A stretch of DNA of 39,920 bases from Candidatus Methylomirabilota bacterium (GTDB lineage: Bacteria; Methylomirabilota; Methylomirabilia; Rokubacteriales; CSP1-6): positions 1-39,920 of the forward strand of contig DASTFB010000127.1 in the NCBI GenBank assembly GCA_035709005.1, written 5' to 3'. Below, piece after piece: positions 1,541-26,308 of the stretch (positions are counted from its first letter, which is position 1; every line of letters starts with the position of its first letter). A program made the translations under genes and the position numbers. Below the pieces are notes generated by a model, which worked only from the letters and a program-made list of their open reading frames with translations, did not search any database and was not told the origin of the DNA.

Positions 1541-2995
<1,455 letters not shown>

Positions 2996-2998
2996 GCG

Positions 2999-3756
<758 letters not shown>

Positions 3757-3760
<4 letters not shown>

Positions 3761-6293: not shown

Positions 6294-6736
6294 TGTCCGA
6301 GCTGCGGGAGCTCTACCAGCAGGTGATCCTCGACCACAACCGCAAGCCGCGGAACTTCCGGCGGCTCCCCCAGCCCGCCCGGCGCGCCGAGGGCCACAAC
6401 CCCCTCTGCGGGGATCACGTGAGCGTCGAGGTGAAGGTCGAGGCCGGCACCATCCGCGACATCGCCTTTCAGGGGTCGGGCTGCGCCATCTCCAGAGCCT
6501 CGGCCTCGATGATGACGGACAGCCTGCAGGGCAAGACCACGGCCGAGGCCGAGGCGCTGTTCCAGCGGTTCCATCGGATGGTGACCGAGGACGCTGGCGA
6601 CGCCGGGGCGCTGGGCAAGCTGGCGGTCTTCGCCGGCGTGCGGGAGTTCCCCAGCCGGATCAAGTGCGCGACACTGCCCTGGCATACGGCGCACGCGGCG
6701 CTCGTCGGCCAGGCCGAGCCCGTGACAACGGAATGA
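6293..6736 (+). CDS. sufU: SufU zinc-dependent sulfur transfer protein
   Basis: The product is 147 residues of the IscU/SufU family. It has three conserved cysteines, Cys39 in NPLCGDH, Cys64 in GSGCAIS and Cys125 in IKCATLPWH, plus Asp41. The insertion between the second and third cysteine is characteristic of SufU rather than IscU. In Gram-positive bacteria SufU binds zinc and accepts persulfide sulfur from SufS; the same role is likely here because sufS lies directly upstream. The start overlaps the sufS stop by one base. Confidence 0.95.
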   Translation: MSELRELYQQVILDHNRKPRNFRRLPQPARRAEGHNPLCGDHVSVEVKVEAGTIRDIAFQGSGCAISRASASMMTDSLQGKTTAEAEALFQRFHRMVTEDAGDAGALGKLAVFAGVREFPSRIKCATLPWHTAHAALVGQAEPVTTE

Positions 6737-6779
6737 GCGCCGGCGGACCGCCGACGGACGCGCCGCCCGGGGAGGGACG

Positions 6780-7094
6780 ATGGTCGATCAGGCAGCGATC
6801 GAGAAGCTCGCGATAGAGGCCCTGCAGACGGTCTACGACCCCGAGATCCCGGTGAACATCTACGAGCTGGGGCTGATCTACGGCGTCACCGTCGACCCGG
6901 CGGGCGCAGTCGCGGTGAAGATGACGCTGACCGCAGCCGGCTGTCCGGCGGCCCAGTCGCTGCCGGCCGAGGTCGAGGAGCGGATCCGCAGCATCGCGGG
7001 GGTCACCGGCGTGAACGTCGAGGTGGTGTTCGACCCTCCGTGGTGCCCGGATCGCATGTCCGAGGCGGCCAAGCTGCAGCTGGGCATGCTGTGA
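6780..7094 (+). CDS. sufT: SufT/MIP18-family (DUF59) Fe-S maturation protein
   Basis: A 104-residue single-domain MIP18 (DUF59) protein. Family marks are the N-terminal DPEIPVNIYELGLIY, the TAAGCP motif with its conserved Cys, and the C-terminal WCPDRMSEAA. Members of this family help mature or deliver Fe-S clusters (SufT in SUF operons, PaaD in phenylacetate operons). The SUF context supports SufT. A GGGGAGGGA ribosome site precedes the ATG, and 43 bases separate it from sufU. Its stop overlaps the next start as GTGA. Confidence 0.93.
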   Translation: MVDQAAIEKLAIEALQTVYDPEIPVNIYELGLIYGVTVDPAGAVAVKMTLTAAGCPAAQSLPAEVEERIRSIAGVTGVNVEVVFDPPWCPDRMSEAAKLQLGML

Positions 7095-8964: not shown

Positions 8965-9029
8965 GGGCGCACATTCCTCAAGCTCTTCCCGCCCGCAACG
9001 GGAGGACCACTCGCGTGAAGGGGGCACAC

Positions 9030-10394: not shown

Positions 10395-10406
10395 AACTCC
10401 GGCCCG

Positions 10407-10444
10407 GCGGGTGCAGCCGCGTCGGCCGACGCGGCTCCACCCGC
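10407..10444 (+). terminator. long GC hairpin between binding-protein gene and downstream operon
   Basis: The two arms (10407-10425 and 10426-10444) pair over 19 positions with a single C:C mismatch, and the centre is the palindrome GCCGCGTCGGCCGACGCGGC (10416-10435). No T tract follows. It could partly stop transcription or protect the 3' end of the binding-protein mRNA, giving more binding protein than permease as in other ABC operons. Confidence 0.6.
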
Positions 10445-10459
10445 GGTGGCTGACCTGCC

Positions 10460-12736
10460 GTGAGCTGGCCCCGCCTCGCCGCCCTCGCGTTCGCCGTCCT
10501 GGTTTCCGCGTCGCACCAGGGCGAGGCCGGGCACGAGGTGCCCTACTATCCGTCGTTCTATCCCCAAGAGATCAAGATCGACGCCCTGTCGCCGGCGGCG
10601 GCCGCCACGCTCTTGCAGAAAAAGTCGCTCCATGCGTACGTCGGCGGCGATCCTTTCGCCGGGGCGGCGCCGCCGCCCCACGTGACGTACGCCCAGTCGC
10701 TCAAGTCCTACGTCGTCCTCACGCTCGGACGGCCGGCGGCGCTGGGGAATGCCCAGACGCGCTGCGCGTCGGCGGCCAGGGCCCTCAAGAGGCTGGCTAG
10801 CGCTCCGGGGCCCTACACGTTCCATCCCCATCCCGTCACCCCGCTGCACGACGACTATCTCTGGCACTTCGATCGGGTGGAAGCCGAGCGGAAACATCTG
10901 GCGGCTGCTGCGGTCGCGCCTGGTCGCGCGCTGCGGATTCAGGCCCGGGGACAGCTCGCCCAAGCTCTGCTGGCCGCCTCCGGGGGCGCCACGGAGAACG
11001 AGGCCGACGCGACGCTCGAGGAGATCGACGTGGGCGAGCTCCTGGCTGACCGGGAGACCCGGCTGAACGGCTGGCTCGGGCCGCCGTGGCTCAAGCGCGG
11101 CTGGTATCAGGCCTATCTTCTTCAGGCCGGCACGCTGACCGACGAGGCAGCCCGGCGCACCGTGGAGGACATGTTCGCCCGTCGCGTGCTGGATCCGCCG
11201 GATGCGGCCGCGCGGGCCAATCTGGAGCGGAACCTCGTGGCCGCGCTCGGGCGGGGATGCGAGCGCGTCGTGGTCGGCTACACCCTGCGCCGGGAGCCCC
11301 TGAACGTCGAGTATTCCGACGGTGTGGAAAACCTCGCCTACGATGCCCAGACCGGGCTCGGCTCGGCGATCTTCCTGCGCGACGTGAAGCTGAAGGACTT
11401 TCCGTGGAACGGCTGGCTCCGCCTGGGCAGCGCGGCACGGCCGGTGAGCGCCTGGAATCCCATCGCCGGCTTCGGTGACGCCACCGGACGGCTGATCTGG
11501 CTCGCCGTCGGCGATCCGGCGTTCTTCCCGGCACCCAGTCACGGAGGCTGGGTGCCGAACCGCGTGCGGGTCGCGTCGACATCGCCGGGTCCGGTGGCGA
11601 TTCCGGCGGACGCGCTCGTCCCCGATGCGGCGACCGGCCTGCTCCGACCCGTCGGGCCGGGGACGACGGCCGCCGCGGTCGTGAGCTACCAGGTGCTGGC
11701 CTCGGCGTTCCACCACGGCACCAGGATGTCGTCCGCCGACCTCGTGTATCCGTTCGCCTTCGCCGCCCGGTGGGGCGCGGGCCCGGGGCCGCGCGGGCGG
11801 CGATCCGACCCCGTCGTCGCCCGTGCCACGGCCGTCTTGCGCGAGCGGCTGGCCGGCGTGAGGGTCGTGAGCGTCGACTCGCAGATCAAGGATTACGGCG
11901 ATCTCCAGGTCGTCAACGACGTCCACCGTATCGACGTCTACCTGAAGCACCGCGGCGACGTCGCCGAGCTGCCGGTGATCGCGCCCCCGTGGAGCGCGAT
12001 CCCGTGGGAGCTCACGGTCCTCATGGAAGAGGCCGTGACGCGGCGGCTGACCGCGTTCTCGGAGGCCGAGGCCCGGCGCCAGGGCGTGCCGTGGCTCGAT
12101 CTGGTCCGGAACGCCAGGCTGACGGCGGCGCTGGCGGCGCTGGCCGAGACCTTCGAGCGGCAGGCCTACGTCCCGGAGACCCTGCGCGGGCTGGTCACGG
12201 TCCCCGAGGCCCGGCAGCGCTGGGCGGCCCTGCGGCGCTTCCATCGCAAGCAGGGCCACTGGCTGGTCACGAACGGCCCCTATCGGCTGCAACAATGGTC
12301 GGCCGACGGCGTCGTCCTCGCGGTGTTCCGCGATCTGAGCTATCCGCTCGTCGTCGGGGCCTACGATGTCTACGCCCTGCCCGTCCGGGCCTTCGCGACG
12401 GCCGTGGACCGGCGAGGGGAACGGCTGGAGATCCGGGCCGACGTCGAAACGGTCGTGAAGTTCGAGCGATCGTATAGGATCGAGCGGGCGCCGTTCCGGC
12501 CGCCCCCGGCCGGCGAGCGCACACGGGATACCCTGGCGGCCCACTACGTCATCGTGAACGCGAAAGATCAGGCGGTGAGCGTGGGGCGGTCCACGGCCCG
12601 GGAAGGGGATCGGCTGGTGGTCGATCTGCCGAAGGCGCTGCCGGCCGGTGCCTATCGGGTCCTGCTGGCCCTCGCGCTCCACGACAACCTGGTGCACCCC
12701 GAGGTGACGGTGGTGCCCTACCGGGTGGGCGACTGA
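10460..12736 (+). CDS. large exported protein with family-5 solute-binding-like segment
   Basis: A 758-residue protein with a signal peptide (first 23 residues, ending in SASHQGEAG). I do not recognise the whole. The segment around residues 595-625 (GHWLVTNGPYRLQQW and a following VFRDLSYP) resembles the late part of OppA/DppA-type family-5 solute-binding proteins. The mature N-terminus has YYPSFYPQEI. It lies between the LIV binding protein and livH, and its stop overlaps the livH start as TGATG, so it is surely part of the transport operon. It may be a second binding protein or a periplasmic accessory subunit. The GTG start is supported by the signal peptide that follows it. Confidence 0.7.
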   Translation: MSWPRLAALAFAVLVSASHQGEAGHEVPYYPSFYPQEIKIDALSPAAAATLLQKKSLHAYVGGDPFAGAAPPPHVTYAQSLKSYVVLTLGRPAALGNAQTRCASAARALKRLASAPGPYTFHPHPVTPLHDDYLWHFDRVEAERKHLAAAAVAPGRALRIQARGQLAQALLAASGGATENEADATLEEIDVGELLADRETRLNGWLGPPWLKRGWYQAYLLQAGTLTDEAARRTVEDMFARRVLDPPDAAARANLERNLVAALGRGCERVVVGYTLRREPLNVEYSDGVENLAYDAQTGLGSAIFLRDVKLKDFPWNGWLRLGSAARPVSAWNPIAGFGDATGRLIWLAVGDPAFFPAPSHGGWVPNRVRVASTSPGPVAIPADALVPDAATGLLRPVGPGTTAAAVVSYQVLASAFHHGTRMSSADLVYPFAFAARWGAGPGPRGRRSDPVVARATAVLRERLAGVRVVSVDSQIKDYGDLQVVNDVHRIDVYLKHRGDVAELPVIAPPWSAIPWELTVLMEEAVTRRLTAFSEAEARRQGVPWLDLVRNARLTAALAALAETFERQAYVPETLRGLVTVPEARQRWAALRRFHRKQGHWLVTNGPYRLQQWSADGVVLAVFRDLSYPLVVGAYDVYALPVRAFATAVDRRGERLEIRADVETVVKFERSYRIERAPFRPPPAGERTRDTLAAHYVIVNAKDQAVSVGRSTAREGDRLVVDLPKALPAGAYRVLLALALHDNLVHPEVTVVPYRVGD

Positions 12737-13617
12737 TGGATTTCTTCTTCATCCACCTCCTCAATGCCCTCCTGTCGGCGGCCACGCTGTTCCTCATCGC
12801 CGGGGGCCTGAGCCTGATCTACGGCGTGATGCGGATCATCAACCTGGCTCACGGCAACCTCTACGCCTTCGGCGCCTACGTCACGGCGTGGACGCTCGGC
12901 AAGCTGCTGGTCGGCGCGCCGACGCCTATCCTCTACCTGGTCCTGCCGGTGGGCGCGGTGGGGGCGGCGCTGCTGGGGGCGCTGCTGGAACCCACCCTGC
13001 TCCGCCCGTTCTACCGGCGCGCCGAGGAGTACCAGCTGCTGGTGACCTTCGGCCTGCTCATGATCCTGGGCGATACGATGCACTTCCTGTGGGGGCCGTA
13101 TCCGCTGTCGGCCAGCGCCCTCTGGGAAAACTCGGGCAGCCTCATGATTGCCGGGAATCCGTATCCGTACTACAACCTGGTCGTCATCGGCATCGGCGGC
13201 CTCGCCGCCGCCTTTCTGTGGGCGTTCGTCTACAAGACGCGCTTCGGCGTGGTCCTCCGCGCCACCTCGCAGAACATGCGTATGGCCTCCGCCCTCGGCG
13301 TGAACGTGAATCGGATCTACGTGCTGGCCTTCACGCTCGGGTGCTTCATGGCCGGCCTGGGCGGCGCCATCATCGCGCCCAGCCAATCGGCGGTGCTGGA
13401 CATGGGGGTCGACGCGCTGGTGCTCTCCTTCATCGTGGTGGTCATCGGCGGGCTGGGCAGCCTGGAGGGCGCGCTGGTGGGGGCGCTGATCGTGGGCATC
13501 GTGCGCGAAGCGGGCATCACGTGGTTCCCCGAGATCGAGCTCGCCGTCCTCTATCTGATGGCGGCCATCGTCCTGCTGGCGCGGCCGGCCGGCCTGTTCG
13601 GGCGCGCCACCACGTGA
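12736..13617 (+). CDS. livH: branched-chain-type ABC transporter permease LivH
   Basis: A 293-residue inner-membrane permease of the LivH type. It has the family's N-terminal GGLSLIYGVMRIINLAHG and the conserved loop VVIGGLGSLEGALVGA near residue 237, which contacts the ATPase. Most of the protein is hydrophobic, with about eight spans. It forms a heterodimer with LivM. It overlaps the upstream gene by one base and LivM by four (GTGA). The exact substrate cannot be told; LIV-family systems carry branched-chain amino acids, amides, urea or aromatic acids. Confidence 0.95.
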   Translation: MDFFFIHLLNALLSAATLFLIAGGLSLIYGVMRIINLAHGNLYAFGAYVTAWTLGKLLVGAPTPILYLVLPVGAVGAALLGALLEPTLLRPFYRRAEEYQLLVTFGLLMILGDTMHFLWGPYPLSASALWENSGSLMIAGNPYPYYNLVVIGIGGLAAAFLWAFVYKTRFGVVLRATSQNMRMASALGVNVNRIYVLAFTLGCFMAGLGGAIIAPSQSAVLDMGVDALVLSFIVVVIGGLGSLEGALVGALIVGIVREAGITWFPEIELAVLYLMAAIVLLARPAGLFGRATT

Positions 13618-14612
13618 ACACCGTCGCCGTCGCCCTGCCCACCCGCTCGCCCGTGAAGCTGCTCGCCGGGCTGGCTCCGATCGTCGTCCTGCTCTTGGCC
13701 TACCCGTGGATCGCCAGCCAGTACCAGGCCATGCTCCTGGGCTACGGCCTGGTCATGGCGATCGCCGCCCTGGGATTCAACCTGTTGTTGGGCTACACGG
13801 GCTTGCTCTCGTTCGGCCACTCGGCGTTCTTCGGGGTGGGCGCCTATGCGGTGGCCATGACGGTCAAGTATCTGGGGGTCAGCTCGATGGAGCTGTTCCT
13901 CCTCAGCGCCATCGTCAGCTCGATCCTCATCGCGGCGCTGTTCGGCGTGGTCTGCGTGCGTTACACTCGTATCTTCTTCGGCATCCTGACCCTGGCCCTG
14001 TCCCAGGTGCTGTGGAGCCTGGCCTTCAAGTTCTTTTGGGTCACGGGCGGAACGGACGGGCTGCGGGTGCCGACGCCGACGCTGCTGGGCGTGGTGACCG
14101 GCACGGGCGACAAGATCGACTTCATCGCCCACTATTACTACTACTACATCCTGGCGACCTTCTTCGCGTGCGTGGCGCTGATGTGGGTCATCGTGAACTC
14201 GCCCTTCGGCAAAGCGCTGCAGTCGATCCGGGACAACGAGACGCGCGCGGAATTCGTGGGCGTGCAGGTCCGGCGCCACCGCTGGGTCGCCTTCCTGGTC
14301 TCCGGCCTCTTCACGGGCCTGGCCGGCGCCCTGTGGGTGCCCCTCAATGGCCTGGTCACCCCCGAGAGCCTGCACTGGACGTTCTCCGGCAAGATCGTGT
14401 TCATGGCCGTGCTGGGGGGGTTCCGGGCGTTCGCCGGCCCCATCGTGGGGGCCGTGCTCTACACGTACCTGGAGGCCTACGCCGTCGGCAACACGGTGTA
14501 CTGGCAGTTCGTGCTCGGCACGGTGCTGGTCGTCCTCGTGCTGTCCCTGCCGACCGGGGTCATGGGCACGGCGGCGCGGCTCCTGGAGCGCTGGCGGGGG
14601 AGGGCGGCCTGA
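13614..14612 (+). CDS. livM: branched-chain-type ABC transporter permease LivM
   Basis: The second permease subunit, 332 residues. It contains the LivM motifs LLGYTGLLSFGHSAFFG and SIRDNETRAEFVGV, the latter in the cytoplasmic loop that meets LivG/LivF. The protein has a run of five tyrosines (HYYYYYIL) at the start of a membrane span, which is uncommon. The GTG start overlaps the livH stop, and the true N-terminus is VNTVAVALPTRSPVK rather than the longer open frame, which is a livH shadow. livG starts two bases after its stop. Confidence 0.95.
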   Translation: MNTVAVALPTRSPVKLLAGLAPIVVLLLAYPWIASQYQAMLLGYGLVMAIAALGFNLLLGYTGLLSFGHSAFFGVGAYAVAMTVKYLGVSSMELFLLSAIVSSILIAALFGVVCVRYTRIFFGILTLALSQVLWSLAFKFFWVTGGTDGLRVPTPTLLGVVTGTGDKIDFIAHYYYYYILATFFACVALMWVIVNSPFGKALQSIRDNETRAEFVGVQVRRHRWVAFLVSGLFTGLAGALWVPLNGLVTPESLHWTFSGKIVFMAVLGGFRAFAGPIVGAVLYTYLEAYAVGNTVYWQFVLGTVLVVLVLSLPTGVMGTAARLLERWRGRAA

Positions 14613-14613
14613 A

Positions 14614-15369
14614 GTGGGCCTCCTGGCGACCACGAACCTGGTCAAGCACTTCGGCCAGACCCGTGCCGTCGACCACGTGGATTTCACCGTGCGGGAGCGC
14701 GAGATGCTGGGCCTCATCGGCTCCAACGGCGCCGGCAAGACGACGCTGGTGAACCTGATCAGCGGGCTCATCCGGCCCGACGGCGGGCGCATCCTCTTCG
14801 CCGGCCAGGACGTCACCCATCAGAGCATCAACGAGCGCATCCGCGCCGGCATCGCCCGCAGCTTTCAGCTCGTGAACCTCTTCGACCACCTCACCGCCTT
14901 CGAGAACATCGCGCTGACGATCTTCTCGCGGCAAGGCAAGACCCGGTCCATGCTGACCCTGGCCGATCGGGATGGTCCGGTCGCCGACGAAGCCCACGAG
15001 GTGCTCCGGCAGTTCGGGCTGGCGAACAAGGCGCTCATGCTCGCCGGCGGCCTGTCCCAAGGAGAGCGCAAACTCCTGGACGTGGCCGTGGCCTACGCGC
15101 TGCGGCCCAAGCTGCTCTTCCTCGACGAGCCCACCAGCGGTGTGAGCACGCGGGAGAAGGCGCCCATCATGGAGGTGATCAGCGCGATCGTCCGCTCGGG
15201 CGATATCGCCGCGGTAGTGATCGAACACGACATGGACGTCGTCTTCACCTACTCCGACCGCATCGTGGCCATGCACGAGGGTAAGATCCTCGCCGAAGGC
15301 ACGCCCGCCGAAATCCGGGCCAACGCCACGGTGACGACCACCCTGATCGGCAGCGGCGGCGCTCTATGA
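14614..15369 (+). CDS. livG: LivG-type ABC ATPase
   Basis: One of the two ATPases of the transporter, 251 residues. It has Walker A GSNGAGKTT, the LivG-type stretch RSFQLVNLFDHLTAFEN, Walker B LLFLDEP, and the H-loop VIEHDMDVVF. The signature motif reads LSQGERK instead of the more common LSYGEQR; the functional Ser-x-Gly core is kept. The GTG start lies two bases after the livM stop and the stop overlaps livF as ATGA. It energises import together with LivF. Confidence 0.95.
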   Translation: MGLLATTNLVKHFGQTRAVDHVDFTVREREMLGLIGSNGAGKTTLVNLISGLIRPDGGRILFAGQDVTHQSINERIRAGIARSFQLVNLFDHLTAFENIALTIFSRQGKTRSMLTLADRDGPVADEAHEVLRQFGLANKALMLAGGLSQGERKLLDVAVAYALRPKLLFLDEPTSGVSTREKAPIMEVISAIVRSGDIAAVVIEHDMDVVFTYSDRIVAMHEGKILAEGTPAEIRANATVTTTLIGSGGAL

Positions 15370-16067
15370 CGACGGAGCTGCTCGCTCTGGACGGGATTCA
15401 CACCTACCGCGGGGCCGCCCATGTGCTGCGGGCGCTGTCGCTGCGGGTGGGCGAGGGGGAGACGGTGTGTCTGGTCGGCCGCAACGGGGCCGGCAAGACG
15501 ACGACGCTGGAGAGCGCGATGGGCCTGCTGCCGATGCGCGCGGGGGCCGTGCGCTTCCGGAGCCGCGACATCACCCGGTTGCCGCCCCACCAGCGCGCCA
15601 CACTGGGGATCGGCTACGCGCCGGAGGACTGCGGCATCTTTCCCGACCTCACCGTGGCCGAGAACCTCCAGATCGGACGTTGGATGGCCGTGGGCAAGGG
15701 GAGGGGGGACTCGAGCCCGGCGGTCTTCCCCGAGATCGAGCAGCTCGGTGACCGCCGGGGTCTCAACCTGTCCGGTGGCCAGAAGAAGATGCTGGCCATC
15801 AGCCGGGCCATGGCGCTGGCCCCGTCGGTGCTGTTGCTCGACGAGCCCTTCGAAGGCCTGGCCCCGGTGGTGGTCACCCGCTTCATCGAAGCGGCCCGCC
15901 GAATCAAGGCCATGGGCGTCTCGCTGCTCATCGCCGAATCGAACGTCACCAACGCCGCGCGTGTGGCCGACCGTCTGTACGCCATCGATCGGGGCGAGAT
16001 CCTGTTCGAAGGGGCCCCTCGAGCCGTGCTGGACAACGCCGAGGTCATGCGGGTCTTGCGCGGCTAG
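15366..16067 (+). CDS. livF: LivF-type ABC ATPase
   Basis: The second ATPase, 233 residues. Motifs are Walker A GRNGAGKTT, the LivF-specific YAPEDCGIFPDLTVAENL, signature LSGGQKK and Walker B VLLLDEPFEGLAP. Family members commonly have EQN near the H-loop; here it reads AESNVT. It ends the transport genes proper; no clear terminator follows, and the next gene starts 29 bases later, so read-through is possible. Confidence 0.95.
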   Translation: MTTELLALDGIHTYRGAAHVLRALSLRVGEGETVCLVGRNGAGKTTTLESAMGLLPMRAGAVRFRSRDITRLPPHQRATLGIGYAPEDCGIFPDLTVAENLQIGRWMAVGKGRGDSSPAVFPEIEQLGDRRGLNLSGGQKKMLAISRAMALAPSVLLLDEPFEGLAPVVVTRFIEAARRIKAMGVSLLIAESNVTNAARVADRLYAIDRGEILFEGAPRAVLDNAEVMRVLRG

Positions 16068-16096: not shown

Positions 16097-17887
16097 GTGG
16101 AGGCGGCGGCGACCATCGCGGTGTTGCCATTCGACAACCCCTCGGGCGACCCCGAGCAAGCGTACTTCGCGCGGGGATTCGTCGAGGACGTGGTCACCGA
16201 GCTGTCCCGGTTTCCAACCCTGGAGGTCATCCATCCGCAAACGTCCTTCAACCTGACCGCCGATCGCCCCACCGAGCACCTGCCCGAGGGCCTGCCAGTC
16301 GGTTACTTCCTGCGGGGCAGCGTTCGACGGCTGGGAGAGACGGTGCGGGTGGCCGCGCAACTCGTGGAGGCGTCGGCCGGGCGCCAGATCTGGGCGGACC
16401 GCTTCGACGCGCCGGCCGAGCGCCTGCTCGCCGTCCAGGACGAGATCGTGACGCGGGTGGTGAGTGCCCTGGCCGTCGAGATCGACACCGCGCGTCTGTT
16501 CCAGGCCAGGCGGAAGCCCATCACGAGCCTCGAGGTCTACGACTGCTGGCTCCGGGGCCTCGACTGCCTCCGCCGGGGGACCGCGGAGGACGACGCGCGC
16601 GCCCGGGCGTTCTTCGAACGGGCGCTGACCCTCGATCCCCACTGGGCGCGGGCCCATGCCGGGCTCTCCCTCTCCCACTTCAATGAGTGGAGCTGCCAGG
16701 CCTGGGAGCTCTGGGACGAAAAAGAGCGCCTGGCCTTCGAGCACGCCCGTCGCGCGGCCGCCCTGGACGACCGGGATGCCCTCGTCCAGCTCGTGCTGGG
16801 GCGCGTCCTGCTCTACCGGCGCCGGTTCGACGAGGCGGCGGGGCACGTGGATCGAGCGATCGCGCTCAACCCGAACGACGCCGACGTGCTCGCCCACGCG
16901 GCTCTCTGCCAGGCCTATCTCGGTCAGCCCGAGGCCGGCGCCACCCTGGCCGCCAAGGCAGCGCGGCTGAACCCTCGCCACCCGGACTGGTACCTGGCCT
17001 GCGCCGCCGTCCCGCTGTTTCTCCTGGGCCGGTATGCGGACGTCGCGGCGCTGGTGGCCGGGGCCCCCCGGGGCACGGTCGATCTCCCCGCCTACCTGGC
17101 GGCCAGCTACGCGCTGGTCGGTGACGCGGCGCGCGCCACGCCAGCCCTGGAGATGTTCCTGTCGGACTTCGTGGAGAAGATCACGTTCGGGCGCCCGCCC
17201 GAGCCGGGCGAGCCCCTGCGCTGGCTCCATCACGTCAACCCATTCCGCCGCCCCGAGGACGCCCAGCACGTCGCGCGTGGGCTGCGGCTTGCCGGGCTGG
17301 CGCCCGATCCCGACGAGCGGCCGGCCCGCGCCATCGCGCCGCCGACGAGGGACGGCCCGGCTCGCGCCGCGTTCCGGCGGGAGGGTGAGGTCTGGACGCT
17401 GGAGTTCGACGGCCTGGCCGTCCAGTTGACCGAGGCCAAGGGGTTCCACGATCTGGGGGAGCTTCTCGCCAAGCCGGAGGCGCCCATCCACTGCCTCGAG
17501 CTGGCCGGGCGTGCGGCGGAGCCCCGCGGCGACGACCCGGTGCTCGACGACCGCGCCCGCCGGGAGCTGGCCTCGCGGGCTCGCGAGCTGCAGGAGCAGA
17601 TCGACGACGCCGAGGCGCGCCACGACCCGGCCCGTGCCGAGCGCGCGCGGGAAGAGCTGGATCGGATCGTCGCCGCGCTCTCCGGCGCTCTCGGTCTCGG
17701 TGGTCGGGCCCGCCGCCTCGGCAGCGCGGCCGAGCGTGCCCGCACCGCGGTAACCTGGCGGATTCGTAACGCCATCCGAAAGATCGCGACGGCCCACCCC
17801 GCCCTCGGGCGGCATCTGGACAACGCCGTGCGGACCGGCACGTACTGCTCCTATACGCCGGACCGACCGATCGACTGGGTGCTGTAG
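16097..17887 (+). CDS. TolB-like/TPR regulatory protein with conserved C-terminal domain
   Basis: A 596-residue soluble protein. Residues 1-125 match the TolB N-terminal-like domain found in many CadC-like and cyclase-linked regulators: IAVLPFDNPSGDPEQAYFARG, then FLRGSVRRLGETVRVAAQLVEA. Residues about 150-350 form TPR repeats. Residues about 425-475 hold the conserved FRREGEVWTLEFDG segment, and the last 50 residues hold WRIRNAIRKIATAHPALG and RTGTYCSYTP. I have seen that tail in large signalling proteins but cannot name its function. No DNA-binding or cyclase domain is visible. The GTG start has a GAGGA site four bases upstream. Its position right after livF suggests a regulatory link to the transporter. 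Confidence 0.75.
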   Translation: MEAAATIAVLPFDNPSGDPEQAYFARGFVEDVVTELSRFPTLEVIHPQTSFNLTADRPTEHLPEGLPVGYFLRGSVRRLGETVRVAAQLVEASAGRQIWADRFDAPAERLLAVQDEIVTRVVSALAVEIDTARLFQARRKPITSLEVYDCWLRGLDCLRRGTAEDDARARAFFERALTLDPHWARAHAGLSLSHFNEWSCQAWELWDEKERLAFEHARRAAALDDRDALVQLVLGRVLLYRRRFDEAAGHVDRAIALNPNDADVLAHAALCQAYLGQPEAGATLAAKAARLNPRHPDWYLACAAVPLFLLGRYADVAALVAGAPRGTVDLPAYLAASYALVGDAARATPALEMFLSDFVEKITFGRPPEPGEPLRWLHHVNPFRRPEDAQHVARGLRLAGLAPDPDERPARAIAPPTRDGPARAAFRREGEVWTLEFDGLAVQLTEAKGFHDLGELLAKPEAPIHCLELAGRAAEPRGDDPVLDDRARRELASRARELQEQIDDAEARHDPARAERAREELDRIVAALSGALGLGGRARRLGSAAERARTAVTWRIRNAIRKIATAHPALGRHLDNAVRTGTYCSYTPDRPIDWVL

Positions 17888-17894
17888 CGCCCCC

Positions 17895-17911
17895 GCCTCA
17901 CGCTGTGAGGC
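17895..17911 (+). terminator. hairpin after the TolB/TPR gene
   Basis: GCCTCAC and GTGAGGC form a perfect 7-base stem with a 3-base loop, 8 bases after the stop codon. There is no T tract, so it may be a weak terminator or mRNA 3' end. Confidence 0.4.
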
Positions 17912-17926
17912 TCGGCCTCACGCCTG

Positions 17927-17942
17927 ATGGGTAAAGACCCAT
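17927..17942 (+). promoter_or_regulatory. hairpin just upstream of the TTC38-like gene's ribosome site
   Basis: ATGGGT and ACCCAT form a 6-base stem with an AAAG loop, followed by TT and, two bases later, by the GGAGG ribosome site at 17945-17949. It could influence translation or end the upstream transcript. Confidence 0.35.
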
Positions 17943-17955
17943 TTGGAGGTCAGCG

Positions 17956-19371
17956 ATGGCGTGTGGCAGCGTGGTTCTCGGTGATCGATGGCCCTTCCCG
18001 GCGAGGGCGAGAGCGAGCGTGCCGGATGCCCGGGGTGTGCCCGTTTCGTGCGGTGACCGGTCGGCCCGGGAGCTTTACGAACGGGCCCTCGTCCAGTACC
18101 ACAGCTTCGTCGGAGATCCGATCGCCACGATCGAGGAAGCCCTCGGACACGCGCCGGACTTCGTGTTGGGGCACGTGTTCCGGGCGACGGTGTTGATGAC
18201 GTTCATGGAGCGGCGCTTCGCCGAGCAGGCCCGGATCAGCGTCGCCTCGGCCGAGGCCCTCCTGCCGCGCGCCAATGCGCGCGAGCAAGCCCTGGTGGGG
18301 GCGGCCCGCCGGCTGGTGGACGGCGACTGGGACGGGGCCTGCGCGGCTCTGGATCGCGTCCTGGTGGATCATCCGCGGGACGCGTTCGCCATCCAGTCCG
18401 CCCACTTGCTGGATTTCTACCGCGGGGATGCCCTGAACCTGCGCAACCGTATCTCGCGTGTCATGCCGTCCTGGAGCCCGAGCGTGCCGGGCTATTCGTA
18501 CATCCTGGGCATGCATGCGTTCGGGCTCGAGGAGTGCAATCAGTATCCGGAGGCGGAGGAGGTTGGCCGCCGGGCCCTGGATCGGGAGCCCAAGGACGGC
18601 TGGGCCGTGCATGCCGTCACGCACGTGATGGAGATGCAGGGCCGGATCGACGAGGGCATCGCCTGGCTCGAGTCCCGGGAGCCGGACTGGGCGCCCGACA
18701 ACGGGTTCGCCTTCCACAACTACTGGCACCTGGCGCTCTACTACCTCGACCATCACCGGTATTCCGACGTGCTGGCCCTCTACGACACGCGGGTGCATCC
18801 CGAGCCACCGGACTTCGCCCTGCAGCTGCTGGACGCGACGGCCCTGCTGTGGCGGCTGTTCCTGGAAGGCGTGGCCCCCGGTCGGCGGGCCGAAGTCCTG
18901 GCCGAGAACTGGGCCGGCCGGCTCGAGACCGAGCGCGGCTTTTACGCGTTCAACGACATGCACGCCATGATGGCCTTCACGCTGGCGGGGCGCGAGGCCG
19001 AGGCGGCGCGGCTCATCGCCGATCTGCAGTGGGCGGTGCAGCACGCCCCCGGGATCAATCGGATGATGGCGCGGGAGGTCGGCTTGCCGGTCTGCCTGGC
19101 CATCCGGGCCTTCGGCCAGGCCCGCTATCCGGAAGCGATCCGTCACCTGGAGCCGGTGCGGGACACCGCCTGGCGGTTCGGCGGCAGCCACGCCCAGCGG
19201 GATGTGTTGACGCTCACCCTCGTCGAGGCGGCCAGCCGGAGCGGCGACGCCGCGCTGGCGCGGCACTACATCGCCGAGCGCACGGTCCACCGGCCGGGCA
19301 GCGCCTGGGGCTGGCGCCTGCTCGCCCGGACCCCACGAATGACCGAAAGGCCGCGAGCGGCTCGCTCGTGA
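17956..19371 (+). CDS. TTC38-like tetratricopeptide protein
   Basis: A 471-residue protein of alpha-helical repeats. The stretch GWAVHAVTHVMEMQGRIDEG is typical of the TTC38 family, found in bacteria and eukaryotes with unknown biochemical role. Further family-like parts are NYWHLALYYLDH and the HAMMAFTLAGRE repeat. No signal peptide is visible. A GGAGG site lies six bases before the ATG. In bacteria such genes often sit near amino-acid or xenobiotic catabolism genes, and here it lies between a LIV transporter and an acyl-CoA synthetase. Confidence 0.8.
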   Translation: MACGSVVLGDRWPFPARARASVPDARGVPVSCGDRSARELYERALVQYHSFVGDPIATIEEALGHAPDFVLGHVFRATVLMTFMERRFAEQARISVASAEALLPRANAREQALVGAARRLVDGDWDGACAALDRVLVDHPRDAFAIQSAHLLDFYRGDALNLRNRISRVMPSWSPSVPGYSYILGMHAFGLEECNQYPEAEEVGRRALDREPKDGWAVHAVTHVMEMQGRIDEGIAWLESREPDWAPDNGFAFHNYWHLALYYLDHHRYSDVLALYDTRVHPEPPDFALQLLDATALLWRLFLEGVAPGRRAEVLAENWAGRLETERGFYAFNDMHAMMAFTLAGREAEAARLIADLQWAVQHAPGINRMMAREVGLPVCLAIRAFGQARYPEAIRHLEPVRDTAWRFGGSHAQRDVLTLTLVEAASRSGDAALARHYIAERTVHRPGSAWGWRLLARTPRMTERPRAARS

Positions 19372-19517: not shown

Positions 19518-21464
19518 ATGACGGTGGACCGGACCGACATCATCTGGCAACCCCGTCCCGAGGTCGTGGAGCGTGCACGAATCGGGCGGTTCATGCGGGC
19601 GCACCGCATCCAGTCACTGGCCGAGCTACAGCGGCGCTCGATCGAGGACATGTCGTGGTACTGGCCGGCCGTCGTGCAGGATCTGGGGCTTCGCTGGCTC
19701 CGTCCCTGGGATCGCGTCCTCGACGACTCCCGGGGACCCGCCTGGCCGGCGTGGTTTCCCGGCGGGCGCCTCAACCTGGCCGACAACTGCCTGGACCTGC
19801 ACATCGACGCCGACCGCGGCGTGCAGCCCGCCCTGGTCTGGGAGTCCGACGACGGGCAGACCCGTACGCTCACATACCTGGAATTGGCGCGTGAGGTGAA
19901 TCGGCTGGCCAACGCGCTGCGACGCCTGGGCGTCGTCGCCGGTGACCGGGTCGGCGTCTTCCTCCCCATGTCGCCGGAGGCGGCCATCGCGACCCTGGCC
20001 GTCGTCCGCATCGGTGCGATCTACACGCCGTGCTTCTCCGGGTTCGGCGCCCCGGCGGTGGCCTCCCGGCTCCAGGATTGCGAAGCGAGGGTCCTCATCA
20101 CCGCGGACGGGTTCCAGCGCCGCGGCCAGGTGGTGCGGATGAAGGAGACGGCCGACGACGCGGTCGCGGCCAGCCCCAGCGTCGCCCACGTGCTGGTGTA
20201 CCGGCGCCTCGGGCGTGAGGTGCCGTGGCACCGCTCCCGGGACCGCTGGTGGCACGACGCCGTCGCGCCCGAGTCCGACGCCTGCCCGGTGATGGCCGTC
20301 GAGGCCGATCACCCTTGCCTCATCATCTACACCTCGGGCACGACGGGCCGGCCCAAAGGCGCCGTGCTGACCCACGGCGGGTTCCTCCTCAAGACGGCCC
20401 ACGACTTCGCCTACTGCCACGATGTGGGGCAGGGCGACCGGCTCTTCTGGCTCACCGACCTGGGGTGGCTCATGGGCCCGATGCTCATCACGGCCGCGCT
20501 CGTCCACGGCGCCACCGGAGTGCTCTTCGAGGGCGTGCCCGACTACCCCAGGCCCGACCGGCTGTGGGGACTGGTCGAGCGCCACCGGATCAGCGTCATG
20601 GGCATCTCGCCCACCGCCATCCGCGCCCTCATGCCGCACGGCCCCCAGCATCCCGCGGCCCACGACCTCACGTCGCTACGGATCCTCGCCGGCACCGGCG
20701 AGCCGTGGAACCCCGAGCCCTACCGCTGGCTCTTCGAGCGGGTGGGGGGTGGGCGCTTGCCCATCATCAATTACACCGGCGGCACCGAGATCTCGGGCGG
20801 CATCCTGGGATGCTTCCCCGTGGCGCCGCTCAAGCCTTGCTCGTTCACCGGGCCCATCCCGGGCATGGCGGCCGACGTGTTCGACGAGAACGGACGCCCC
20901 GTGCGGGGTGAAGTCGGCGAGCTCGTCGTGACCAGGCCCTGGCCGGGAATGACCGCAGGCTTCTGGCGTGATCCCCAGCGCTATGAGGAAACGTACTGGT
21001 CGCGCTGGCCCGGAGTGTGGGTACACGGCGATTGGGCCGTGATCGACGAGGACGGCTTCTGGTTCTTGCAGGGCCGGTCGGACGACACGCTGAAGATCGC
21101 CGGCAAGCGTCTGGGGCCCGCCGAGGTGGAGTCGGTTCTGGTCGGCCATGACTCGGTGGCCGAGGCCGGCGTGATCGGCGTGCCTCACGACGTCAAGGGC
21201 GAAGCGGTCGTGTGTTTCGTCGTGCTGAAGCAGGGACAGGCGTCCTCGGAGGCGCTCCGGGCCGAGCTGGGTGACCGGGTGGCCCAGCACATGGGCAAGG
21301 CGCTCAAGCCCGAGCGGATCCTGTTCGTGCGCGATCTTCCCAAGACGCGCTCGGCCAAGATCATGCGCCGGGTGATCCGCGCCACGTATCTCGGTCGTGA
21401 GCCCGGTGACCTTTCGTCCCTGGAGAACCCCGACGCGGTCAGCGCGGTCGCCGAGGCGAAGTAG
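19518..21464 (+). CDS. AMP-forming acyl-CoA synthetase (acetyl-CoA synthetase-like)
   Basis: A 648-residue adenylate-forming enzyme that activates a carboxylic acid to its CoA ester through an acyl-AMP. The P-loop-like motif YTSGTTGRPKGAVLTHGG lies near residues 271-288. The TGGTEISGG motif and the hinge GRSDDTLKIAGKRLGP follow. The catalytic C-terminal lysine is Lys614 in TRSAKIMRR, equivalent to Lys609 of Salmonella Acs. Length and ACS-like N-terminal helical part fit the acetyl/propionyl/acetoacetyl-CoA synthetase group; the exact acid is unknown. A GAGGTG site precedes the ATG. The upstream ABC locus could import the substrate. Confidence 0.9.
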   Translation: MTVDRTDIIWQPRPEVVERARIGRFMRAHRIQSLAELQRRSIEDMSWYWPAVVQDLGLRWLRPWDRVLDDSRGPAWPAWFPGGRLNLADNCLDLHIDADRGVQPALVWESDDGQTRTLTYLELAREVNRLANALRRLGVVAGDRVGVFLPMSPEAAIATLAVVRIGAIYTPCFSGFGAPAVASRLQDCEARVLITADGFQRRGQVVRMKETADDAVAASPSVAHVLVYRRLGREVPWHRSRDRWWHDAVAPESDACPVMAVEADHPCLIIYTSGTTGRPKGAVLTHGGFLLKTAHDFAYCHDVGQGDRLFWLTDLGWLMGPMLITAALVHGATGVLFEGVPDYPRPDRLWGLVERHRISVMGISPTAIRALMPHGPQHPAAHDLTSLRILAGTGEPWNPEPYRWLFERVGGGRLPIINYTGGTEISGGILGCFPVAPLKPCSFTGPIPGMAADVFDENGRPVRGEVGELVVTRPWPGMTAGFWRDPQRYEETYWSRWPGVWVHGDWAVIDEDGFWFLQGRSDDTLKIAGKRLGPAEVESVLVGHDSVAEAGVIGVPHDVKGEAVVCFVVLKQGQASSEALRAELGDRVAQHMGKALKPERILFVRDLPKTRSAKIMRRVIRATYLGREPGDLSSLENPDAVSAVAEAK

Positions 21465-21576: not shown

Positions 21577-23967
21577 GTGAGTCCTTCCGCGTTCGCCGAA
21601 GAAGGCAAGGGAGCCCGCGGCTCCCGGCCTCCCACCGACGTCGCGCTACCGCTGGGGGCGACCGTGACGATCGTCTTCAGTGATATCCGGGGCTTCACCG
21701 AGTACACCGACCAGTACGGAGACGAGGCGGCGTACCGACTGCTGCAACAGCACAACGGCGCGGTGCGCAATCAGGTCGATCTCTTCGGCGGTTACGTGGT
21801 GAAGACTCAGGGCGACAGCTTCATGGTGGCCTTCCCCACCGCCCGTTCGGCCATCCAGTGCGCGGTGTCCGTCCAGCGGGTGCTGGCCTCGGCCCAGACG
21901 GGAGCCGGTACGCGGATCGCGCTCGGCATCGGCATCAACACCGGCGAGCCCATCCAGGAGGGCGGCGACTTCTTCGGGAGCCCGGTGAACCTGGCCGCCC
22001 GCATCTGCGCCGCCGCCGGACCCGGTCAGATCTTCGTCTCGGAGACGACCCGGTACGTGACCGGCCGCATCGAGGCCGTCGAGTTCGTGGACCGCGGCTT
22101 GCACGACCTCAAGGGCTTTCAGGAGCCGCAGCGCCTGTACGAGGTGCGCTCGGTGGACGAGGCTCGCGGCGCCCACGGTGCCGGCCAGGATCTGAGCGCC
22201 GAGATCGCCGCGCTGGCCGAACGGTGCCGTAGCCTGGGCGCCGAGCTCGTGGAGGCGAGTCAGGCCCTGCAGGGCACCGGCGAGCTTCCCGCGGCCGCGC
22301 TGGGACGCCAGCTCGGGGCCCTGCGGGTCGCCTTCGGCGGGCTGTGCAGCCGGGTGTTCCAGCGAGCCGCTCAGGCAGGAGTCAACATCACCCAGTCGGC
22401 CGACCGCATCGCCTCCCTGGCGGAGCTCGAGCCGCTGCTGGAAGCGATCAACCAGGCCGAAGCTGGGCGAGTCGCGGCCCGCGAACGCGCCGCTGGCGAG
22501 GACGACGCCTCCCGGCAGGCCGCTCTGGAGGCGGCCGTCCAGCGCGCGATGGGCGTGCTGAACCGCGTCCTCGCCATCAGCCACCCCGAAGACCCGGCCT
22601 TCCAGGCTCTCCTCGAGTGCCAGGCCAAGGCCAGCGAGCTGCGCCTCAAGCTCTCGCGTGTCGCGTCGACAAACCGCGATTACTCCGCGCACCGCGTCGA
22701 CGAGGCGACGAAGCCATTCGCCGATCTGCTGGCCCTCGTGGACGGCCAGGACGATGTGGACGATGAGCGCTGGATGGCGCTCGAGGAAAGCGTGGGACGC
22801 GTGTTCGGACGCCAACTGCTCATCGCGGCGAGCCGCGGCCGGCTCGTGGTGGCAGGAGGGGCCCGACGGGCCCGTGCGCAGGTCCCCGCTCCTGCCGCCC
22901 CGCCACGGGTCGAGCCCCGCGAGGCGCCGACACCGAGCCCGACCTACCAGCCGGCTCCCCCCCCGCCCGCCGCCGTGGAGGTTCCGCGAGCCGAGCCAGT
23001 CCCGGTCGAGACCCACCGAGCGGAGCCGGTGCGGGAGACACGCCCGGAGCCTCCCGCCGAGCAGCCGACCGAATCGTTGCTGCCCACGCTCGATCCGCGA
23101 GCGGCCGGGGTCACGTGGTGGAGCGCCGCCCACAGGGAATGGACCGCCTGGAAGTCCTCGGGGATGGCCACGGCGCACGCGCTGCGAGCGGCGATTGCCA
23201 AGCACCCCTACCTGCTCAGTGTCCCGATCACCCAGAGCGCCGGGTACGATGAAGGGCGCCTCGCCGGAGCCTATTTCGTGCTGCTCAACCACGTGGAGAA
23301 CGTCTCGCCGTCGTTCCTCCGCCATGCGGTGGAGGAGGCCCTGCAGCAGGCCGGCCCGGGCGCCGACCCGGCCGCTCTGGGGCCCGCGCTGTACGAGCTG
23401 CTGGTTAGCAAAGGAAGGCTGCGCCAGACCTATGCCGACTTCGTCCGTGACGGCATGGTCGCCGCCATTCCCATTCCCGGCGTGTGGGCGGACGCCATCG
23501 TCACCGAGCACGAGGACTCGACAGTGATCACGACCCGGCCCAGCCGCGAGATCGGGGACGCGGCGGAGCAGAGCCGGGAACTGACGGACGTCACCGAGCG
23601 GCTGAGCGAGCATCGCATCGCGCTGACGCTGCCGGCCCTGACGGCGCGGTTCGTCTGCATCAGGCGGGGCGAGCTTCGCGAGGCCCGCGACATCGTGATC
23701 AAGCTGACCGAGGGCGGCGAGCCGTCGACGGCGGCCTGGGCGCTGAGCCTGCGTAGCGATCAGCTCATGGCGGCACCGCCCAAGCGATGCGGCGCCGAGG
23801 GTCTCTCGGTCGAGGGATTCGGCAAGAACTACCGCGCGTTGTGGCTCACCGTGTTCAACAGCGACCCCGCGCTGGACAAGACCTACGAGCTCACCGCGTC
23901 CCTCTGCCCGCAGGGCGTGCCGTCGAGCACGCCCCGTCGGTCGGTCTTCACGGGACGCTCCCGGTGA
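21577..23967 (+). CDS. class III nucleotide cyclase with novel C-terminal domain
   Basis: A 796-residue protein. Residues 28-190 form a class III adenylate/guanylate cyclase domain with both metal aspartates (Asp36 in FSDIRGFT, Asp80 in TQGDSF), Lys76 in the purine-binding position and the transition-state pair Asn138/Arg142 in VNLAARI, so it should be active; ATP is the likelier substrate. Residues about 200-310 are helical and resemble the N-terminus of the next gene's product. A Pro/Glu-rich linker (about 440-505) follows. Residues about 510-796 form a domain beginning WWSAAHREW and containing HPYLLSVPI and LWLTVFNSDP, which is paralogous to the C-terminus of the next protein. No membrane span is visible. 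The GTG start follows an extended -10 with almost no leader. The stop overlaps the next start as GTGA. Confidence 0.85.
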   Translation: MSPSAFAEEGKGARGSRPPTDVALPLGATVTIVFSDIRGFTEYTDQYGDEAAYRLLQQHNGAVRNQVDLFGGYVVKTQGDSFMVAFPTARSAIQCAVSVQRVLASAQTGAGTRIALGIGINTGEPIQEGGDFFGSPVNLAARICAAAGPGQIFVSETTRYVTGRIEAVEFVDRGLHDLKGFQEPQRLYEVRSVDEARGAHGAGQDLSAEIAALAERCRSLGAELVEASQALQGTGELPAAALGRQLGALRVAFGGLCSRVFQRAAQAGVNITQSADRIASLAELEPLLEAINQAEAGRVAARERAAGEDDASRQAALEAAVQRAMGVLNRVLAISHPEDPAFQALLECQAKASELRLKLSRVASTNRDYSAHRVDEATKPFADLLALVDGQDDVDDERWMALEESVGRVFGRQLLIAASRGRLVVAGGARRARAQVPAPAAPPRVEPREAPTPSPTYQPAPPPPAAVEVPRAEPVPVETHRAEPVRETRPEPPAEQPTESLLPTLDPRAAGVTWWSAAHREWTAWKSSGMATAHALRAAIAKHPYLLSVPITQSAGYDEGRLAGAYFVLLNHVENVSPSFLRHAVEEALQQAGPGADPAALGPALYELLVSKGRLRQTYADFVRDGMVAAIPIPGVWADAIVTEHEDSTVITTRPSREIGDAAEQSRELTDVTERLSEHRIALTLPALTARFVCIRRGELREARDIVIKLTEGGEPSTAAWALSLRSDQLMAAPPKRCGAEGLSVEGFGKNYRALWLTVFNSDPALDKTYELTASLCPQGVPSSTPRRSVFTGRSR

Positions 23968-25928
23968 AAGCGGCCAGCGACGAGCACACCGAGCTGGCCC
24001 AGCGGCTCACGACGCTCACGGAGCGCGTGACCCGGATCAGCGCCACGCTGACCGAGGCGGGGCGCGACCTGATGGAGCGGCGGGCCCTGCCCCCGGACAA
24101 CCTCGTGGACGAGATGGCAGCCGTCCATTCGGCGTTCGCGGAGCTCCGAGACCGGGTGCTGGCCGCGGCGGCCACCCTGGCCGCCGGACCTCCGCCACCC
24201 ATCACGACGGTTCGTGAGCTCGAAGTCCTGGTGAAGGTGCTGGTCGACGAGAATGCCCGTCGCGCCCGCCGCCACGCCGCGGAGCAGGCCGCTTCGGTCG
24301 TGGACGCCGGCCGCAAGACAGAGCCTCCCGCCCAGTCGCGAGGAGCGGACGAGGCGCGGCGGCGCGCCCAGGACGAGGCGCGTCGAAGAGCGGCCGAGGC
24401 CGAAGAAGCCTGGCGTCGGGCCGAGGCGCAAGCCAAGCGCCGGGCGGAAGAGGAGGCGCACCGCCGAACGGCCGAGGAAGCCCGGCGCAAGGCCGAGGAT
24501 GAGGCGCGCCGGAAGGCGGCCGAGGAGGACCAGGCCCGGCGCAAGGCCGAAGACGAGGGGCGGCGGCAGGCGCTGGCGGCGGCGGAAGATCGGCGGAAAG
24601 CGGTGGAGGCCGAGACCCGGCGCAAGGCCGAGGAGGAGGCGCGCCGCAAGGCGGCGGAGGCCGAGGAGCAGCGGCGAAAAGCGGCCGCGGAAGCCGAGGC
24701 CCGGCGCAAGGCCGAGGAGGAGGCGCGTCGCAAAACGGCGGAGGGCGAAGAGCAGCGCCGGAAGGCCGCGGGGGCGGAGGCCAAGCGCAAGGCCGAGGAT
24801 GAGGCGCGCCGCAAGACGGCGGAAGCCGAGCAACAGCGCCGCAAGACGGCGGCGGAAGCCGAGGTCAGGCGGAAGGCGGAGCAGCAGGCGCGACGGACGA
24901 CGGTCGACACGGACGAGACCCGCCGGAAGGCGGCGGACATCGAGGCGGAACGCAAGGCCGACCATGAGTCGCAACTGGAGGCCCAGCGGCAGGCCGAAGA
25001 AGAGGCGCGGCGCAGGGCAGAGCGAGAGCCCGCCGCCACCGTGGACGGCGGCCAGGACTCCCCGGAGCCCATGGCCGGGACGGAGGACGACACGGCCGAC
25101 GCCGGATTGGAGACCGCTCAGTGGTGGATCTCCGCCAGCGCCAGCTGGGCGTCGATGCGTTCGAAGAAGATCAGCTTCGCCGCCGCCGTGAGCGATGTGC
25201 TGACCAAGTATCCCTACTTCCTCAGCGTGCCGATCCAGACCAGCGCCGATTTCGAGGACGGGATGGTGGCCTACGGCTACGGCATCCTGCTCGAGCACAT
25301 CGAGCAGCGCGTTCCAAACTTCGTCTCCGACGCGTTCACTCGGCTTGTCGCCCGGCAAGGCGCGTCCCTGGGACAGCGGCTCTACGAGTATCTGGCCCAG
25401 GCGCTCGGAACCAGTTACGGTGACTTCATCAAGGCCGTCATGCTGGGCGCCATACCGAAGACCCCGCCGTGGCCGACAGGCGGTATCGAGGACGGCGATA
25501 CGACCACCACGGTGTTCGTCCGCCCCACCGCTCGCATCGGCGATATCCAGCAGAAGGTCGAACGGTTCACGCAGCCCTACCAGCGTTTCGGCGAGCACCA
25601 CTTCACCGCGGCCGTGGCTCCGCTCACCACCCGCTTCTTCCGGGTCGACGCTCTGGATGTCAAGGAGGCTCGGCACCTGGGCCTCCGCATCACCGACAAG
25701 GGTGTGCCCTCGGATCAAGCCTGGGTCATCTCCATCCCCACCCGGGGTGGCGCATCCCAGATCAAGCGCCACGTCGCCCAGGGCACGGTCATCAACGGCA
25801 TGGGCCGGGAAAACGCGTCCGTGTGGGTGGCTGTCTTCAATGCGGACGCCGAGAACGAGAAGCGGTACGACGTGGCGATCGAGGTCACCCGGCGGCAGCC
25901 GGGGACGGCGAGCTTCAGAAAGCGCTAG
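23964..25928 (+). CDS. long coiled-coil protein sharing the cyclase's C-terminal domain
   Basis: A 654-residue protein starting at the GTG that overlaps the cyclase stop. Residues 1-100 are helical and line up with residues about 200-310 of the cyclase (shared ELE pattern and spacing). Residues about 118-365 are almost entirely Ala, Glu, Arg, Lys and Gln in repeats such as RRKAEEEARRKAAEAEEQ, which predict a long single helix or coiled coil. Residues 385-654 match the cyclase's C-terminal domain: WWISASASW, YPYFLSVPI, RPTARIGD, EHHFTAAVAPLTTRFF and VWVAVFNADAENEK all have counterparts. The pair looks like a signalling module in which this protein is a scaffold or partner. Function unknown; the upstream-extended frame is a cyclase shadow. 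Confidence 0.8.
   Translation: MKAASDEHTELAQRLTTLTERVTRISATLTEAGRDLMERRALPPDNLVDEMAAVHSAFAELRDRVLAAAATLAAGPPPPITTVRELEVLVKVLVDENARRARRHAAEQAASVVDAGRKTEPPAQSRGADEARRRAQDEARRRAAEAEEAWRRAEAQAKRRAEEEAHRRTAEEARRKAEDEARRKAAEEDQARRKAEDEGRRQALAAAEDRRKAVEAETRRKAEEEARRKAAEAEEQRRKAAAEAEARRKAEEEARRKTAEGEEQRRKAAGAEAKRKAEDEARRKTAEAEQQRRKTAAEAEVRRKAEQQARRTTVDTDETRRKAADIEAERKADHESQLEAQRQAEEEARRRAEREPAATVDGGQDSPEPMAGTEDDTADAGLETAQWWISASASWASMRSKKISFAAAVSDVLTKYPYFLSVPIQTSADFEDGMVAYGYGILLEHIEQRVPNFVSDAFTRLVARQGASLGQRLYEYLAQALGTSYGDFIKAVMLGAIPKTPPWPTGGIEDGDTTTTVFVRPTARIGDIQQKVERFTQPYQRFGEHHFTAAVAPLTTRFFRVDALDVKEARHLGLRITDKGVPSDQAWVISIPTRGGASQIKRHVAQGTVINGMGRENASVWVAVFNADAENEKRYDVAIEVTRRQPGTASFRKR
24618..24866 (+). 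repeat. three tandem ~84-base coding repeats
   Basis: Units at 24618-24701, 24702-24782 and 24783-24866 each encode about 28 residues of the RRKAEEEARRK...EEQRRKAA type; a fourth, partial unit follows. They are part of the coiled-coil region. Length variation by unit loss or gain would be expected. Confidence 0.65.
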
Positions 25929-26308
25929 CCGGGCTTGGGCGTCGGCGCCCCCGGCGGTGCGGCGGGAGCGGGCGCCTTGGGATCGCGCTCGAACGGACTA
26001 CGACGGACCCCGAGCTTCTGAGCGATCTGGCTGATCGGCTGAACGGAATCCATGAGCCGGTTCAGCACCACGGCGATCTCGTCCCGGTCCGTGCGCAGGC
26101 GCTCGTGCTCCTTACGCAGCTCCTCCAGCTCTCGGCGGAGATCAGCCACCTCTTTGCGTAGCTTTTCGGATTCTCGCTCGAGCTCTACCACGCGGGCGGC
26201 CGCCGTGTCGCCGTGCAGGAGCGGAGGCAGGTGCGGAAGCAGGCGAAGCCCGTCCTGCACCCAGTGCGCCACCTTTTCGCGCGTCTCGGCGGCCGGAATC
26301 CCGTCCAT
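25925..26308 (-). CDS. small coiled-coil protein, convergent with the cyclase cassette
   Basis: A 127-residue protein, taken from the ATG at 26306-26308 because a GGGAGGAG site precedes it; a longer frame to 26356 lacks such support. It begins MDGIPAAETREKVAHWVQDG and has a heptad-rich middle (ELERESEKLRKEVADLRREL and onward), followed by NRLMDSVQPISQIAQKLG and a Pro/Ala-rich tail. The order, a short helical head then a coiled coil, resembles the C-terminal half of the protein at 34446-35249. Its stop codon (CTA on the plus strand) shares the bases CTAG at 25925-25928 with the stop of the upstream plus-strand gene. Function unknown. Confidence 0.7.
   Translation of the reverse strand: MDGIPAAETREKVAHWVQDGLRLLPHLPPLLHGDTAAARVVELERESEKLRKEVADLRRELEELRKEHERLRTDRDEIAVVLNRLMDSVQPISQIAQKLGVRRSPFERDPKAPAPAAPPGAPTPKPG

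Follow-up and report, generated by a model that had tools for sequence, protein, structure and literature searches.

Two overlapping genes in a 39,920-nucleotide stretch of DNA (hereafter the window) from an uncultured Candidatus Methylomirabilota bacterium of soil/groundwater encode proteins that, as judged by tree and profile comparison, come from two anciently diverged paralogue branches within a single bacterial family, and that are homologous far beyond chance in both their C-termini and their N-regions. Defining this unannotated family also gives an unknown domain an origin: the shared C-terminal domain (CTD) is best read as the half of a gluzincin metallopeptidase that follows the active-site HExxH helix, combined with a jelly roll and with its zinc site lost. 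The family, named here N1/N2-CTD after its helical N-regions and this domain, is undescribed and, as far as searched, limited to one uncultured bacterial family and one Chloroflexota protease; the open-access literature holds nothing on it or on a cyclase bearing such a module. The branch fused to a nucleotide cyclase always has acyl-CoA ligase genes as neighbours, so that a part in organic-acid (benzoate-type) breakdown can be put to the test.

Architecture, homology and distribution of the gene pair

Gene A (21577..23967, + strand, GTG start) encodes 796 residues arranged as cyclase, N1, N2, proline linker, CTD and SVF tail, and gene B (23964..25928, + strand, GTG start) encodes 654 residues arranged as N1, single-alpha-helix rod and CTD. 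The four-base overlap noted in an earlier sequence-only reading can be read directly as GTGA. In A, the class III nucleotide cyclase domain (PF00211; residues 29-188; 21661..22140, +) precedes two helical segments recognised by HMM match, N1 (residues ~204-302; 22186..22482, +; ELE at residue 283) and N2 (residues ~310-430; 22504..22866, +), followed by a linker with 29% Pro (22867..23103, +), the CTD with its half-gluzincin helical part and beta-sandwich (23104..23900, +; WW at 23116) and a C-terminal tail, SVFTGRSR (23941..23964, +), that shows the S[PVL]F motif of the cyclase branch. B comprises N1 (residues 5-110; 23976..24293, +; likewise an HMM match, with ELE at residue 85), an E/R/K/A rod (residues 124-356; 24333..25031, +), the helical part of the CTD (25110..25451, +) and a beta-sandwich that resembles PPC/GOLD/CUB-like jelly rolls by fold search (25479..25892, +).

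BLASTP aligns 259 residues of the isolated C-termini of A and B at 32% identity (150 bits; E=8e-49); full-length BLASTP missed the homology, probably through composition adjustment with the rod. An alignment of 44 family sequences contains all the landmarks by which the two C-termini had originally been matched, in unchanged order. An independent N-region HMM, trained on 22 relatives that included neither the window proteins nor their nearest genus, matches A at residues 204-451 (E=2.5e-59; N1 and N2) and B at residues 5-110 (E=1e-23; N1 only), and places both ELE motifs at the identical model position. The proposed sharing of helical N-regions with the same ELE spacing thus stands for N1, whereas N2 and the proline-rich linker are found in A and not in B, N2 being retained in the cyclase orthologues.

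The long Ala/Glu/Arg stretch of B had been taken for a coiled coil, an assignment that its composition and charge spacing contradict. Only 7 of the 233 residues between 124 and 356 are large hydrophobics (3%), opposite charges are paired at i+3/i+4 149 times against 75 +/- 7 in shuffled sequences, that is, twice as often, and the stretch lacks classical heptads with hydrophobic a/d positions. The scarcity of hydrophobics and the doubled charge pairs point away from a classical coiled coil and towards a single-alpha-helix (ER/K-type) rod, about 35 nm long if fully helical; its coding DNA is repetitive, with 81/165-base periods.

The recognition of an apparently active class III cyclase in A is borne out by the Pfam match to PF00211 (E=1.3e-18; 67.7 bits against a cut-off of 21.9) and by the six catalytic residues (Asp, Asp, Lys, Asp, Asn, Arg), which comprise two metal-binding Asp, the adenine-specifying Lys/Asp pair and the transition-state Asn and Arg. 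These are intact in 21/21 fused cyclases, namely A and 20 orthologues, and A is very probably active as an adenylate cyclase. The same genome encodes 16 other class III cyclases, so that A's would be one input of many, together with 11 cNMP-binding domains that could read cAMP. The fused cyclases are far closer to one another than to the other cyclases of A's genome, which points to a single fusion lineage.

The CTD was found in 32 of the 95 phylum genomes searched, all belonging to one bacterial family (Rokubacteriaceae-type). A pattern scan of 84,980 species genomes, which detects close relatives only, returned 47 loci, 46 of them in Rokubacteria/Methylomirabilota and one (L103) in Chloroflexota; the CTD profile retrieved only the L103 genome from 300 Chloroflexota genomes, and a plasmid search gave no match. 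The layout of most of the proteins is N1-N2-proline linker-CTD, that of the cyclase branch is cyclase-N2-linker-CTD, and the A protein of the window carries both N-segments (cyclase-N1-N2-linker-CTD). In the CTD tree, the cyclase branch (18 rows, including A) stands apart from the rest with 100/100 support, and B groups, likewise at 100/100, with the corresponding proteins of one other genus. Duplication and fusion, as previously suggested, agree with these two well-separated branches, only one of which carries a cyclase. The idea of a two-component cassette is only partly right, and weak as a rule for the family, given that adjacency is restricted to two genera: outside the window's genome the pair stands side by side, in unchanged order, only in the genomes G086 and G087 of a single other genus, whereas 17 further genomes carry both types on separate contigs or at separate loci. 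In G086 and G087 the A-type protein is without a cyclase and no close cyclase was found elsewhere in either genome, a combination that points to cyclase loss. One non-cyclase paralogue (L075:1587-3244, genome G043) is split into two reading frames by a frameshift or an assembly error.

Origin of the C-terminal domain

The sequence-only reading had not recognised the C-terminal domain, and this holds for direct searches: neither the CTD nor the N-region matches Pfam or NCBIfam, and PDB sequence searches with the CTD, the HExxH profile and L103 returned nothing. At greater distance, however, the domain corresponds to the second half of an HExxH metallopeptidase. An AlphaFold2 model computed on the 44-sequence alignment (pLDDT 92.5, pTM 0.90) predicts seven helices (4-114) followed by a beta-sandwich (124-261), for which Foldseek returns PliG, p24 GOLD, CUB, PPC-type (the Tk-SP jelly roll), collagenase CBD and CPE C-terminal jelly rolls; a fold search against viral structures gave generic sandwiches only.

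The link to metallopeptidases comes from L103, which matches the CTD family at E=2e-85 and has the sequence HEMFHAVQ just upstream of a full CTD, where the WW..A...W landmark reads WWYEATAEWA. Ten further Chloroflexota proteins show HExxH and then WWxE[AVT]xA, and 2/10 match DUF6055, which has been equated with MEROPS M106 in a degradome paper (PMC11241649); no match is obtained between the CTD and the DUF6055 HMM. The L103 segment was modelled as well (pTM 0.78), with the predicted order helix-strand-strand-HExxH helix-Glu helix. The third-ligand Glu of the WWxExxA helix is present in 11/11 HExxH relatives and is replaced by S/A/G/T/R in 31 aligned Rokubacterial CTDs, and none of the 44 family proteins checked has an HExxH ahead of WW. 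The first helix of the CTD is therefore best read as the former third-zinc-ligand helix, and the absence of HExxH together with the replaced ligand Glu suggests that the domain serves as a binding module and not as an enzyme; lacking the defining catalytic features, it is not classed as a peptidase. An HExxH seen in the long L054/L055 frames was rejected as out-of-gene read-through, since it lies ahead of the called gene, whose start is at the cyclase. Credible HExxH-type relatives were not found within the window's own phylum. L103 itself (L103:21-4712, 1563 aa) carries carboxypeptidase-regulatory, two LamG, cohesin and weak dockerin/EF-hand regions ahead of HExxH...WWxE and the CTD; it has no Pfam peptidase match and is probably an unannotated secreted metallopeptidase.

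Chance resemblance, or a chimeric L103 made of a peptidase half and an unrelated CTD, would explain why PDB fold searches of the CTD and L103 models, dominated by the beta-sandwich, retrieved no gluzincin, and why the full-length profile comparison without L103 is not significant (E=0.11). Such an origin is nevertheless very improbable. The WWxEATA(D/E) helix lies inside the CTD and is common to 11 independent HExxH proteins, and the match between L103 and L130 (E=3.8e-8) covers both HExxH and the WW helix. In a trimmed hhalign comparison of the CTD helical part with the ten HExxH proteins, from which L103 was excluded, the score was 37.4 (E=9e-6), against 18.4 for the best of 200 column shuffles, 13.6 for the reversed profile and 14.5 for the unrelated N-region, and the score after removal of the WW block (23.5) is still above these controls.

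Genomic context and the SPF motif

The gene that immediately precedes A in the same orientation encodes an acetate/acetoacetate-type CoA ligase of the ANL family (19518..21464, +). A same-strand acyl-CoA ligase adjoins the cyclase paralogue in 19/19 assessable loci, and boxB/boxC are present in 14 of them, where the order is regulator, boxC, boxB, RidA, benzoate-CoA ligase, PaaK-like ligase and cyclase. In these relatives an apparently intact adenylate cyclase is thus placed inside aerobic benzoyl-CoA operons; no published link of a cyclase or cAMP to box genes was found in the open-access literature. The box-linked cyclases form one clade (99/97 in the CTD tree) that may go back to one relocation, so the 19 loci do not count as 19 independent events and perhaps represent two associations, the second being with the acetate/acetoacetate-type ligase found in the window, L054/L055 and L041. 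A's gene lies outside the box operon of its genome, while the cyclases of 14 relatives lie inside the cluster: the complete operon of the same genome is on another contig (L176; contig C74 of G000), with the cyclase slot empty and a gap of ~0.8 kb.

The remaining surroundings in the window include a SUF-type Fe-S cluster operon (SufB, ABC ATPase, SufD and class V aminotransferase) and, behind it, another class V aminotransferase (1541-8233), Liv/urea-type ABC transporter genes for a substrate-binding protein, permeases and two ATPases (9015-16067), amid which a 758-aa protein (10460-12736) has no Pfam or NCBIfam match, and, separating the transporter genes from that of the ligase, two TPR-containing proteins (16097-19371).

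On the other side of the pair, the non-cyclase paralogue is followed immediately by a coiled-coil gene of 107-152 aa in 28 loci, including the window, where this small partner (25925..26308, -) is convergent with B, is not co-transcribed with it and is unnamed in Pfam. The partner is mostly convergent, with a single same-strand case (L042), and is retained across many genera while other neighbours vary; one subclade (L043, L045, L057, L059 and L074) lacks it. All 20 partners inspected contain an SPF motif of the form [RT][RK]SPF[EA]R or close to it (for example KASPFAH), which in the window reads RRSPFER (25985-26005). A strict S[PVL]F plus basic C-terminal ending occurs in 18/29 family proteins without a partner and in 1/27 with one, and SPF falls within the last 25 residues of 14/45 family members against 0/509 neighbouring (background) proteins. 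The occurrence of SPF either in the partner or in the protein's own tail suggests a single docking motif that can be provided in cis or in trans; it may be the ligand or target of the CTD and offers a concrete lead to a binding partner. Two partnerships thus appear to have been retained, that of the non-cyclase paralogue with the small partner and that of the cyclase with acyl-CoA ligase genes. A gene for a DUF3750 protein (PF12570; 26448-27176, -) adjoins the partner gene, and its cluster also occurs near the pair in G086/G087.

Proposed working and relation to known systems

Taken as a whole, the sequence evidence favours, tentatively and somewhat short of an even chance, a model in which A is a cyclase docked by its CTD and tail on an acyl-CoA-ligase assembly, with B as a rod scaffold, so that cAMP would be coupled to catabolism. 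A and B would be cytosolic members of one lineage-specific family built from N1 (with or without N2), a flexible or rod-like linker and the CTD, with one branch fused to a class III adenylate cyclase. A would dimerise through its cyclase domains and produce cAMP, while the CTD and the SPF-type tail would hold it on a protein assembly connected with acyl-CoA ligases, namely benzoyl-CoA/box enzymes in most relatives and the acetate/acetoacetate-type enzyme in the window, such that cAMP output might follow organic-acid activation. B would be the non-enzymatic sister, whose long alpha-helical rod could space or scaffold the same assembly and whose SPF motif could come in trans from the adjoining small partner. 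As A and B are usually unlinked, any contact between them is guesswork. A more specific version, in which SPF-type motifs, from the cyclase tail in cis and from the partner in trans, bind in the CTD groove left open by the missing HExxH half, and in which cyclase, 35-nm rod and acyl-CoA ligases form one cAMP-producing catabolic assembly, appears quite improbable.

Regulated class III cyclases usually consist of one cyclase and one C-terminal module on a helical connector, a layout that A shares, and this, together with the position of the cyclase beside acyl-CoA ligase and box genes, lends some weight to the CTD being a small-molecule sensor. The sandwich or the cleft between the two parts would bind an organic acid or acyl-CoA and switch the cyclase through N2, with B as a decoy or modulator. 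Such a sensor is a serious competitor, yet on the unlikely side: the N2-CTD linker is long and proline-rich and would be a poor conformational transmitter, the non-cyclase paralogues carry the same CTD and no output domain, and profile searches matched the CTD to no ligand-binding family. It is also rather unlikely that the context is uninformative, with old neighbours merely kept by slow rearrangement and the proteins having a general role that has nothing to do with acyl-CoA metabolism, for example as a cell-envelope or polar scaffold. The box placement being a single clade would fit that explanation, as would the transporters and beta-oxidation genes likewise kept near within genera and the varied surroundings of the non-cyclase copies; against it, the cyclases outside that clade (those of the window, L054/L055 and L041) adjoin a CoA ligase of another kind and have other surroundings.

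Several known systems provide points of comparison. The cyclase of most relatives sits at the end of the boxC-boxB-RidA-benzoate CoA ligase-PaaK cluster and so shares its setting with the box operon regulators BoxR/BzdR, but it would act as a second-messenger enzyme and not as a DNA-binding benzoyl-CoA sensor. The second half of the CTD has the fold of PPC/GOLD/CUB-type beta-sandwiches in Foldseek, without sequence similarity and with weak TM-scores (~0.5-0.6 of target). With the DUF6055/MEROPS M106-like gluzincins (L103, L130-L134 and L140-L148), the CTD shares the WWxxAxxxW helix and the following helical subdomain, which are profile-homologous; it differs in the loss of the HExxH half, which L103 keeps together with a CTD, and of the zinc-ligand Glu, and the CTD proteins are predicted to be cytosolic and joined to a cyclase or a helical rod, in contrast to secreted proteases. 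Finally, A and all its orthologues resemble class III adenylate cyclases (PF00211) in the catalytic domain and six canonical residues, whereas in A the cyclase is N-terminal and is followed by an undescribed N1/N2-linker-CTD module, without a known sensory domain, and its overlapping gene encodes a sister protein that has no cyclase.
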